Shown here: positions 41,776 to 45,545 of the stretch, in pieces
Position numbering within the stretch: the stretch's first letter is position 1
How the letters are laid out: the number at the start of each line of letters is the position of its first letter
Origin: Chloroflexota bacterium
Lineage (GTDB): Bacteria > Chloroflexota > Dehalococcoidia > Bin125
Assembly (NCBI GenBank): GCA_028875225.1
Contig: JAPPFB010000024.1
Location: forward strand, 1-59,932
Reading direction: 5' to 3'
Length of the DNA: 59,932 nucleotides
Made by a program: the position numbers and the translations under genes
Notes under the pieces: model-generated
The model's input: only the letters and a program-made list of their open reading frames with translations
What the model was told of the DNA's origin: nothing
The model's database searches: none

Positions 41776-42630
41776 ATGACTTCGAACGCTGACGGATGGG
41801 CCCGCCCGGAGCTGATCTGCGAGACCGACTGGCTGGCCGAGCACATCGACGACGACGATGTGGTGGTGCTCGACTGTGATCTGCTCGACGCCTACCTGCG
41901 GCTGCATATTCCCGGGGCGGTCTGGTCGCTGTCGCGCTACTGGAAGACCGACCCGCGTGATGACTCGCAGATCTACGGCATGTCGGATCCCCAGCAGTGG
42001 GCTCAACTGGTCGGACGGTTGGGGATCACGCCGGATACCACGGTCGTGGGCTACGACGGGTCAGGCTCGCTCTACGCGGCTCGGACCTGGTGGACGTTCG
42101 ATCGCTTCGGCCACACCAACTTCAAGATCCTGCACGGCGGGCTGGACAAGTGGTATGCCGAGGGACGTCCCCTGTCGCGTGAGAACCTGCGCCCGCGCGC
42201 GGTCGAGTATCCCGTTCCGTCTGCGCCGCACGATGATTCGATCTGCCGGCTCGACGATATTCCCGGCGCGATCGAGGATGACCATCACGTCTTCTGGGAC
42301 GTGCGCTCGGACGGTGAATGGACCGGTGCGAACAAGCGCGGCACGCAGCGCGGCGGGCGAATCCCTGGCGCCGTGCACCTGGAGTGGCTGGAGACGCTCG
42401 AGGAGCCGGTGCGCACGCTCAAGCCGCCGGCCGAGCTACGCCGGATGCTGGCCGACCTCGGGATTACGCCGGAGACGACGGTCACCACCTATTGACAGGG
42501 AGGCATCCGTGCGGCGCACGGATACTGGCTCCTGCAACTGCTTGGCTACAACCAGAGCCGCAACTACGACGCGTCCTGGCACGAGTACGGCAACGCGCTC
42601 GAGCATCCGATCGAGACGCCGGACGACTGA
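41776..42630 (+). CDS. Selenoprotein rhodanese (thiosulfate sulfurtransferase), TGA = Sec240
   Basis: A 284-residue two-domain rhodanese read through one in-frame TGA at 42493-42495 (codon 240) to the stop at 42628-42630. The N-terminal domain (residues about 14-130; AYLRLHIPGAVWSLSRYW, TVVGYDGSGSLYAARTWW) has Asp where the active-site Cys would be. The C-terminal domain has the RGGRIPGAVHLEW block. The catalytic loop is TVTTY-U-QGGIRAAHGY, where family members have Tyr-Cys in the same loop. The tail LLQLLGYNQSRNYDASWHEY then completes the domain. Without readthrough the protein ends exactly one residue before its nucleophile. A strong SECIS hairpin follows the TGA. Confidence 0.92.
42505..42523 (+). 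promoter_or_regulatory. Bacterial SECIS-type hairpin of the rhodanese
   Basis: AUCCGUGC pairs perfectly with GCACGGAU around GGC. Opening the top pairs gives a larger G-first loop. Seventeen bases separate the UGA from the loop, within the 16-37 base range of the bacterial SECIS model, and the first loop base is G. Confidence 0.82.
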
Positions 42631-42656: not shown

Positions 42657-43913
42657 TCAGCCTTCGAGCACCTCTGCGAGCGCGGCTTCGACCTCGTCCA
42701 GCGGAGCGAATGCTTCGAAACGGGCGGCGACGACGCCGTCGGCGTTGACGACGAAGGTCCACTCGCCGGTGTGCAGTCCCCACTCCTCCAGGATCGGCGT
42801 TTCGATTGGCTCTGCGCCGAGTTTCACTTCGGCCGGGTTCTCGTAGAGATCGACGTGGACGTAGTTGGCCGCGTCGCCGTAGATGCTTCTGATCTCGGAG
42901 AGGACTTCGGCCTGCGGACCGCAGAAGGCGTTGGTGCAGAAGCCGGGCGAGGCGAAGACGACGACCAGCGGTTTGCCGGCCTCAACTGCGTCGGCCAGCG
43001 AGACCAGGTAGAGACCCGGATCGGGTTCGTCGCCGGTCGAGAGATCTTCGATGTTCGCGACATCGATGAGGGTCCGGCTCTGTGATGCCGGCGCCGCGTC
43101 ACCGACGGATGGGGCTGCCGTGTCGTCGGGGATGTCGATGGCGATGCCGAGGTCTTCGAACCCGTCTTCTGACGGGATATGCAGGATCAGATTCCAGCGT
43201 CCGACGGTGGCGAACTCGACGTAGGTGACGTGGAAGCCGCGGACGCCGTCGGGGAAGCGAGCGAACCGCGCGACGACCTCTTGCATCTCACCGGGCGCGT
43301 CGTCAGGCAGTACCGTGACTCGCATCGCGGGCGTTTCAACGAGGCCGGCCGGACCTTCAATCACGAGCGAGATCCGGTGCCGGCCGGGCGCCAGATCGGG
43401 CGTGCCCAGTGCGATGGTGTAGCCATCGCCGCTGTCGTAGACCGGATAGCCCCAGTCGAGGAGCAGTTGCAGGCGCGGGCTCAGATCGTCATAGGCGGCG
43501 GCTTCGAGGATGCCGACCGACATGCCGCCTTCCATGCCGCCCATTCCGTCGTCTTCCTGCGACTGCGCCGGTTGCGGGTCGGGCTGGGCTTCCTGCTGGG
43601 TCTCGGCGGCGGCCTGGGGTTGCTCCTGAGCATCCTGATCAGCGGCGCGTACCGTCCCGATGCGTCCGCTGCTCGTTGAATCGGCTCGGGTTTGTGCGGT
43701 CGCTGGCTCACCGCCGGATGTGGAGTCGGCAGCCGTCTCGGCCCCCTCCTGCTGTTGCTGCGGTTGGGCCTGTTGCTGTTGTTGGTCGTCGTCGGAAGAG
43801 GTCGCGCAGGCGGACAGCACCAGCGCCGCCGCTGCCGCGACCATCAGGATCGACCAACGCCGACTTCCGGGCGCGCGCAGCCAGTTCAGTATTCCGATCA
43901 TGGACATCCTCAC
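42657..43913 (-). CDS. Thioredoxin-fold lipoprotein with Gln-rich linker
   Basis: Up to 418 residues. The GTG at 43913 and ATGs at residues 3 and 5 are all possible starts. A lipoprotein signal with lipobox VLSAC (Cys at about residue 36) is followed by a Gln/Ala/Ser-rich linker (about 40-120). A beta-rich domain then contains APGRHRISLVIEGPAG. The C-terminal thioredoxin-like domain has VVVFASPGFCTNAFCGPQ, where the Cys pair is C-x4-C rather than C-x2-C, and WTFVVNADGVVAARFEAF. Likely an extracytoplasmic redox or metal-transfer protein. It converges with the rhodanese gene. Confidence 0.8.
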   Translation of the reverse strand: MRMSMIGILNWLRAPGSRRWSILMVAAAAALVLSACATSSDDDQQQQQAQPQQQQEGAETAADSTSGGEPATAQTRADSTSSGRIGTVRAADQDAQEQPQAAAETQQEAQPDPQPAQSQEDDGMGGMEGGMSVGILEAAAYDDLSPRLQLLLDWGYPVYDSGDGYTIALGTPDLAPGRHRISLVIEGPAGLVETPAMRVTVLPDDAPGEMQEVVARFARFPDGVRGFHVTYVEFATVGRWNLILHIPSEDGFEDLGIAIDIPDDTAAPSVGDAAPASQSRTLIDVANIEDLSTGDEPDPGLYLVSLADAVEAGKPLVVVFASPGFCTNAFCGPQAEVLSEIRSIYGDAANYVHVDLYENPAEVKLGAEPIETPILEEWGLHTGEWTFVVNADGVVAARFEAFAPLDEVEAALAEVLEG

Positions 43914-43946: not shown

Positions 43947-45545
43947 CTACTCTCCGCCGACGTAGGAACCGAATGTGAAGGCGAACAGGCGGAACTGGTC
44001 AGAGTCGGAACTCAGTTTCAACTCATGCTCCGACCACTCCGGCAGGAACAACAGCCGGTAGAGGTCGTTCTCGGTCACGCGGATAAACGAGCGGCCCTGA
44101 TCATCCCAGCGGATGTGCGCTCCCGCTTCGTTGGGGAACAGCCAGCGGCCGTCGATCTCGACAAAGACGTCGTACGGCCGGCCATCGTCGGCGGCGGTGA
44201 GCACCAGGTTGACCGTGCGCCCGCGGATGATCAGCGCGACGTAGTCCTCAAGATTGTCCGTCTGCCTGGCGTGGACGATCGATTCCTCTTCGATCTGCCA
44301 GAACCCCTCGAGGTACCAGCGATTGTGCTCGCGCTGGGAAGTTGCGACATCGACGAACTGCGTGACCGCTCCAAGCGATGAGAGATAGTAGGCGTCCTGA
44401 CCGGCGTAGGGCCGGCCCGAGTTGCGCCGCCAGCCCATGTATAGCTCGCGCGTCTGACCGCTCGGCTGACCACGACGGCTGGGTTCCGCGACCTCGACGC
44501 CGAAGGGGACGTCGGACAGATCTCGCCCGTTCGCCTGCAGCGCTTCTCGAATGGCGACTTCCGTTTCCTGGTAGTCGCCTTCGCCGATGTGGTCGTAGAG
44601 CACGCCCATCGGCGATCCGTCGGGGGTCGGGCCGATCAAGTACTTGCGCGGCCAGAAGCGGCGGGCGCCCTGGAAGGTGCGGAAGCTGACGTGGTCGTTG
44701 TCGATGGCGACGAGATACTCAATCCCGTACTCGTCGATCGCGCCCTGTACGTTTTCGAGCCGCTCCTCGAAGGCGAACTCGGGCGAGTGGATGCCGATGA
44801 TCACCAGACCGTGGTCGCGATACTTCTCGTCCCAGGCGGTGAGGAAGGGCAGCGTGCGCACGCAGTTGATGCAGGTGTACGTCCAGAAATCGACGAGGAC
44901 GATGTTGCCCCTGGCCAACTCGAGGGCGATCGACGTTTCCGCGCCGTTGAGCCAGGCGTTGATGCCGACCACGTCGGTGACGGTTGCGTTGGCGCTGATC
45001 TCTTCGGCGCGCAGACGCAGGCGCTCGGCCTCGGCTGGGTCGATCTGTTCCTGTTCTTGCTGCTGCTCGGCCGCGTCAGCCTGCTCCCGCTCCGACGTCA
45101 TCTCGTCCTGCTGGGCGCCCGATTGTTGCGGCTGCGACTGTTCGACCTGGGCTTCGTCGGAGTCGGCGCCGTCAACCTGTTGCTGGGCTAACTCCTGAGC
45201 CTGTTCCTGATCCGTCTGTTCGGCAGCGTTCGGATCCGTTCGGTCCTGTTCGGCCTGATCGGTCGACTGGGACTGTTCGGCTTGTTCGGCGGCGTTCGAC
45301 GCCGTTCGGTCCTGTTCGGATTGTTCGGTCGACTGAAGCTGTTCGGACTGTTCGGCGGCGTTCGATTGCGTTCGGTCCTGTTCGGTCTGTTCGGTCGACT
45401 GGCGCTGTTCGGTCTGTGCGTCGGCGCTCGATTCCGTTCGGCTCTGTTCGGCCTGTGGTTGGGACGTCGGTTCGTCGTCCGAGGAACAGGCCACAAGCAA
45501 CGCGACGATCAAGACGAGGGCGGCGGCAAGCGTGAGATGTTTCAT
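43947..45545 (-). CDS. Thioredoxin-family lipoprotein with C-terminal DipZ-like domain and EQ repeats
   Basis: A 532-residue lipoprotein with lipobox LLVAC (Cys20). A linker of about 160 residues is almost entirely Glu, Gln, Ser and Thr, including a tandem 22-residue repeat. The redoxin domain has IVLVDFWTYTCINCVRTLPF with a Cys-x2-Cys redox pair. A C-terminal beta domain follows (about residues 385-530, VNLVLTAADDGRPYDVFVEI), as in the secreted part of DipZ-type proteins. It probably acts on thiols outside the membrane, with the linker spanning the cell wall. A TACGCT box lies seven bases before the ATG. Confidence 0.85.
   Translation of the reverse strand: MKHLTLAAALVLIVALLVACSSDDEPTSQPQAEQSRTESSADAQTEQRQSTEQTEQDRTQSNAAEQSEQLQSTEQSEQDRTASNAAEQAEQSQSTDQAEQDRTDPNAAEQTDQEQAQELAQQQVDGADSDEAQVEQSQPQQSGAQQDEMTSEREQADAAEQQQEQEQIDPAEAERLRLRAEEISANATVTDVVGINAWLNGAETSIALELARGNIVLVDFWTYTCINCVRTLPFLTAWDEKYRDHGLVIIGIHSPEFAFEERLENVQGAIDEYGIEYLVAIDNDHVSFRTFQGARRFWPRKYLIGPTPDGSPMGVLYDHIGEGDYQETEVAIREALQANGRDLSDVPFGVEVAEPSRRGQPSGQTRELYMGWRRNSGRPYAGQDAYYLSSLGAVTQFVDVATSQREHNRWYLEGFWQIEEESIVHARQTDNLEDYVALIIRGRTVNLVLTAADDGRPYDVFVEIDGRWLFPNEAGAHIRWDDQGRSFIRVTENDLYRLLFLPEWSEHELKLSSDSDQFRLFAFTFGSYVGGE
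45231..45432 (-). repeat. 66-base tandem repeat encoding the EQ-rich linker
   Basis: About three copies of a 66-base (22-codon) unit. The plus-strand marker GTTCGGTCCTGTTCGG occurs at 45238, 45304 and 45370, exactly 66 bases apart, and a degenerate fourth starts near 45438. The encoded unit contains TEQTEQDRT and SNAAEQSEQ. Copy number probably varies between strains. Confidence 0.85.

Follow-up and report, generated by a model that had tools for sequence, protein, structure and literature searches.

In the window (the whole 59,932-nucleotide stretch of DNA analysed here), a rhodanese reading frame opening at 41776 meets an in-frame TGA at 42493-42495 and then stays open for 44 more codons, exactly as stated in the preliminary description of this locus (Table 1). 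The question raised is whether this TGA ends the protein or is translated and, in the latter case, as which residue. Ordinary gene calling cuts the protein off just before its catalytic residue here, and would be expected to do likewise in many related genomes.

Table 1. Positions of the features discussed, numbered along the window
Feature	Position	Strand	Basis or remark
Predicted tandem-domain (SseA/COG2897-like) rhodanese selenoprotein gene	41776..42630	+	284 residues including Sec240; true stop TGA 42628-42630
N-terminal rhodanese domain, residues 17-128	41824..42159	+	best PF00581 stretch
In-frame TGA, codon 240, at the rhodanese nucleophile position, predicted to be read as selenocysteine	42493..42495	+	frame, alignment, homologues
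Six-residue active-site loop U-Q-G-G-I-R, U replacing C of CxxGx[R/T]	42493..42510	+	
44 post-TGA codons	42496..42627	+	protein-level conservation reaching other families
bSECIS hairpin, 8-bp stem ATCCGTGC/GCACGGAT, loop GGC (42513-42515)	42505..42523	+	folding, synonymous-codon null, covariation
Conserved rhodanese neighbour, no Pfam match	42657-43913	-	
Thioredoxin-like protein, Thioredoxin_10 C-terminal domain	43947-45545	-	downstream of the Sec rhodanese, opposite strand
tmRNA gene, tag GESRELALAA	53126-53482	+	

The readthrough product matches the Pfam Rhodanese profile (PF00581) over two stretches (E 1e-31), and its best structural matches, 1uar (E 8e-42) and 3hwi (4e-40), span about 270-275 residues. 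It combines two rhodanese domains with a nucleophile position in the C-terminal one, the arrangement of tandem rhodaneses (SseA/COG2897). Residue 240 aligns in both 1uar and 3hwi with the Cys of the loop YCRI, the known catalytic Cys of rhodaneses, so that the proposed location of the TGA on the nucleophile is borne out. The six-residue loops of sulfurtransferases follow the pattern CxxGx[R/T]. The protein resembles the Cys tandem rhodaneses 1uar, 3hwi, 3aay and 3hzu SseA in its two domains and active-site loop (about 270 residues aligned), but these have a Cys nucleophile in loops reading CRIAER or CRIGER, compared with UQGGIR here. The corresponding loop position of the N-terminal domain reads GYDGSGS, without Cys; this domain is probably catalytically silent, which leaves Sec240 as the sole candidate nucleophile. 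The score against PRK11493, the 3-mercaptopyruvate sulfurtransferase equivalog (105.6 bits), is below the curated 250-bit cut-off. An AlphaFold2 model computed from a shallow alignment had a mean pLDDT of 52 and was set aside.

A scan of GTDB species genomes detected 14 loci with 80-96% identity, all from MAGs labelled Chloroflexi, Chloroflexota or Dehalococcoidia, in agreement with the 'Chloroflexota-like' origin initially suggested. Both the TGA and the tail are kept in 14/14; the preliminary description had named as a danger close relatives with a normal stop and no downstream conservation, and this is not what these loci present. The TGA form is found in 19 of the 20 genomes of the family, four further genera being represented at identities as low as 62%. 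No orthologue was detected in the twentieth, G002, a member of the genus whose assembly is 88% complete in 290 contigs, and which is thus no counter-example. In a survey of the class (393 genomes), we found many more distant homologues with one in-frame TGA and others with none. Among 103 homologues and paralogues, the codon at position 240 is TGA in 71, which extend down to about 36-50% identity, TGC or TGT in 32, and no other codon in any. A smaller search of the phylum added three genomes from beyond the class in which one TGA falls somewhere within the match. Four of the TGA loci (L134, L135, L137 and L138) form a more distant TGA rhodanese group, and the second TGA copies present in genomes G097 and G275 fall within this group.

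Across the genus, variation in the post-TGA codons is mostly at third positions, and these codons are under purifying selection at the protein level. The locus presents two of the features by which a bacterial selenoprotein gene is recognised, an in-frame UGA opposite the Cys of homologues and conservation downstream of it. A genuine stop would yield a 239-residue product ending at the active site, with a tail decayed or unused as a result of a nonsense mutation, pseudogenization or an assembly error. Mechanical ORF calling, which stops at 42495, agrees with this reading, but the same TGA recurs in 14/14 independent records and in 71 homologues, the tail is under purifying selection, and the truncated product would be deprived of its nucleophile and of the 44 residues that complete the fold, making a genuine stop extremely improbable.

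All components of bacterial Sec decoding that the preliminary description had proposed to look for were detected in the same genome (3.2 Mb, 96% complete): selA (520.6 bits), selB (324.1 bits) and selD (353.8 bits), each above its curated cut-off, and a tRNA-Sec with a TCA anticodon (selC), detected by both Rfam and ARAGORN. The selD gene (L036, G000:C23:272746-273687) itself contains an in-frame TGA and reads LARCGGUGSK around it; since UxxK is the site of Sec-containing SelD (PMC13188914), the selenophosphate synthetase of this genome is a probable selenoprotein as well. Among the 69 genomes of the class sample that encode a TGA rhodanese, selA was found in 65, tRNA-Sec in 61 and at least one of the two in 68, against a background of 284 genomes with selA or tRNA-Sec among 393; the hypergeometric probability for 68/69 (4.6e-10) takes related genomes as independent, and is therefore overstated and only indicative. 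The sole TGA genome with no match to selA or tRNA-Sec, G277, is 72% complete.

These data also bear on the reading in which the whole genome uses TGA for Trp, Cys or Gly instead of Sec. The frame is indeed open once the TGA is read as a residue, as an altered code would predict, but the gene itself and three of its relatives (L004, L014 and L017) terminate in TGA where others use TAA or TAG, the genome has both Sec machinery and a SECIS element, and the position exchanges with Cys alone, so that we give an altered genetic code hardly any credence. Candidate readings of the TGA as a true stop, a pseudogene, an assembly error or an altered code were rejected on the combination of conservation and Sec machinery. 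Position 240 almost certainly encodes Sec.

The 8-bp stem described at 42505-42523 is exact, whereas the spacing of 17 nt from the TGA initially given for the hairpin is that of the apical loop, the stem beginning 9 nt past the TGA. The bSECIS model calls for a loop of 3-9 nt with a G in its first two positions, a stem of 4-16 bp, a spacing of 16-37 nt and an MFE of at most -7.5 kcal/mol (PMC13188914). The hairpin conforms to these rules, as claimed, with a loop of 3 nt (GGC), a stem of 8 bp, a spacing of 17 nt and -20.5 kcal/mol, the last value being that of the 45-nt stretch containing it (z -2.64). A hairpin this good is obtained in less than 1% of synonymous recodings of the rhodanese gene (p 0.007). 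Among the 103 homologues, the median hairpin score is 19 with TGA versus 5.5 with Cys, and the synonymous-codon null gives p < 0.05 for 55 of the 71 TGA genes, 16 missing this threshold, and for none of the 32 Cys genes; the search rule demands a perfect stem, and the TGA genes L096 and L137 fail it. The residues IRAAH are often identical in the TGA and Cys groups, and the difference in hairpins is therefore at the RNA level. For instance, Arg245 is encoded by CGT in 61/71 TGA genes versus 1/19 Cys orthologues, CGT making up 9.6% of the Arg codons of the same genes. At stem position 12-26, the pairs are C-G (56), G-C (6) and A-T (2), which are compensatory changes. Within the genus, third positions differ pairwise by 6.5% in the nine post-TGA codons that carry the hairpin, by 39.5% upstream of the TGA and by 22.5% beyond the hairpin codons. 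In some members of one related TGA group (L116, L120, L125, L127, L132 and L136), the SECIS-like hairpin is a different one: its loop has four bases, mostly GTT- (GTTC-type), and the spacing from the TGA is 20 nt. All of the initially proposed checks that could be made computationally being positive, the interpretation of the gene as a Sec rhodanese is supported as a whole.

Close Cys forms mostly retain the Q-x-G-I/V-R loop and have no hairpin. We placed the 103 proteins in a quick maximum-likelihood tree (LG+G4); this tree has long branches, so only exchanges forced by starred branches were counted, giving at least seven Sec/Cys exchanges on well-supported branches (eight by parsimony), a count that gives no direction. 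A broader scenario, in which Sec would be the old default of this rhodanese throughout one class of Chloroflexota, Cys would have been derived several times, and the selenol would perform an Se-S sulfur transfer unlike that of any characterised rhodanese, appears doubtful. The family nevertheless provides a natural experiment, one active site with Sec or Cys exchanged at least seven times and a SECIS gained or lost in step, and this set of swaps allows a direct test of what a sulfurtransferase gains from selenium.

Rhodanese-like selenoproteins were already known from marine metagenomes, as the preliminary description noted: a Sec 'rhodanese-related sulfurtransferase' (COG2897) was among the new selenoprotein families of the 2005 Sargasso Sea survey (PMC1088965), and related Sec rhodanese entries are present in a 2008 ocean survey. 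A 2022 review includes the Sec rhodanese as COG2897 (SseA), MQG53192.1 is a COG2897/SseA Sec rhodanese entry (PMC9312934), and a 2026 review lists a Sec rhodanese form 4 with the motif UxxG and MCY3690685.1 as representative (PMC13188914). The protein studied here is likewise of COG2897 type with Sec and a bSECIS just after the UGA, and its U-Q-G-G fits the UxxG of form 4; it very likely belongs to the same family, orthology being judged from family name and motif. Forms 1-3 and 5 also have Sec in a rhodanese domain, but PMC13188914 lists them as separate subfamilies that differ in motif or domain make-up. Passages of PMC1088965, PMC13188914 and PMC9312934 on the catalogued COG2897 Sec rhodanese make no mention of Chloroflexota, and our literature search returned no paper on a Sec rhodanese in Chloroflexota and none on selenoproteins of SAR202. 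Since Sec-containing COG2897 rhodaneses have already been catalogued, the novelty is modest; what is added is the lineage and how widely the gene occurs in it, together with the covariation of the SECIS and the swaps between Sec and Cys.

From its domains and active-site motif, the protein is predicted to be a tandem-rhodanese (SseA/COG2897) selenoprotein of the sulfurtransferase type. By analogy with established bacterial Sec decoding, SelB with its Sec-tRNA would bind the hairpin and the ribosome would insert Sec240 at the TGA. Located in the C-terminal loop, Sec240 could then accept a sulfane sulfur, with thiosulfate, mercaptopyruvate or a persulfide as candidate donors, forming an enzyme Se-S(H) intermediate whose sulfur would be handed to a thiol acceptor, possibly thioredoxin-like. 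Rhodanese chemistry makes such a sulfurtransferase reaction likely.

The order of the rhodanese and its neighbours is preserved within the genus, and in another family homologues of the thioredoxin-like neighbour, which carries the Thioredoxin_10 domain, likewise lie beside Sec and Cys forms of the rhodanese; together, these observations suggest a functional link between the rhodanese and this neighbour. The proximity of thioredoxin-like proteins would also suit a protein in which Sec is inserted but serves mainly in redox catalysis, as a selenol peroxidase or a persulfide/sulfenate reductase. Redox catalysis is the presumed function of most selenoproteins catalogued so far (PMC13188914), and many Sec counterparts of thiol enzymes are likewise presumed to act in this way. 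We consider this role rather unlikely for a protein with a single Sec, no nearby resolving Cys and a standard six-residue rhodanese loop; moreover, Cys recurs in place of Sec within this loop, which suggests that the ordinary rhodanese reaction suffices. The product of the gene located between the Sec rhodanese and the Thioredoxin_10 protein contains FASPGFCTNAFCGPQ in its C-terminal part, which looks thioredoxin-like by eye.
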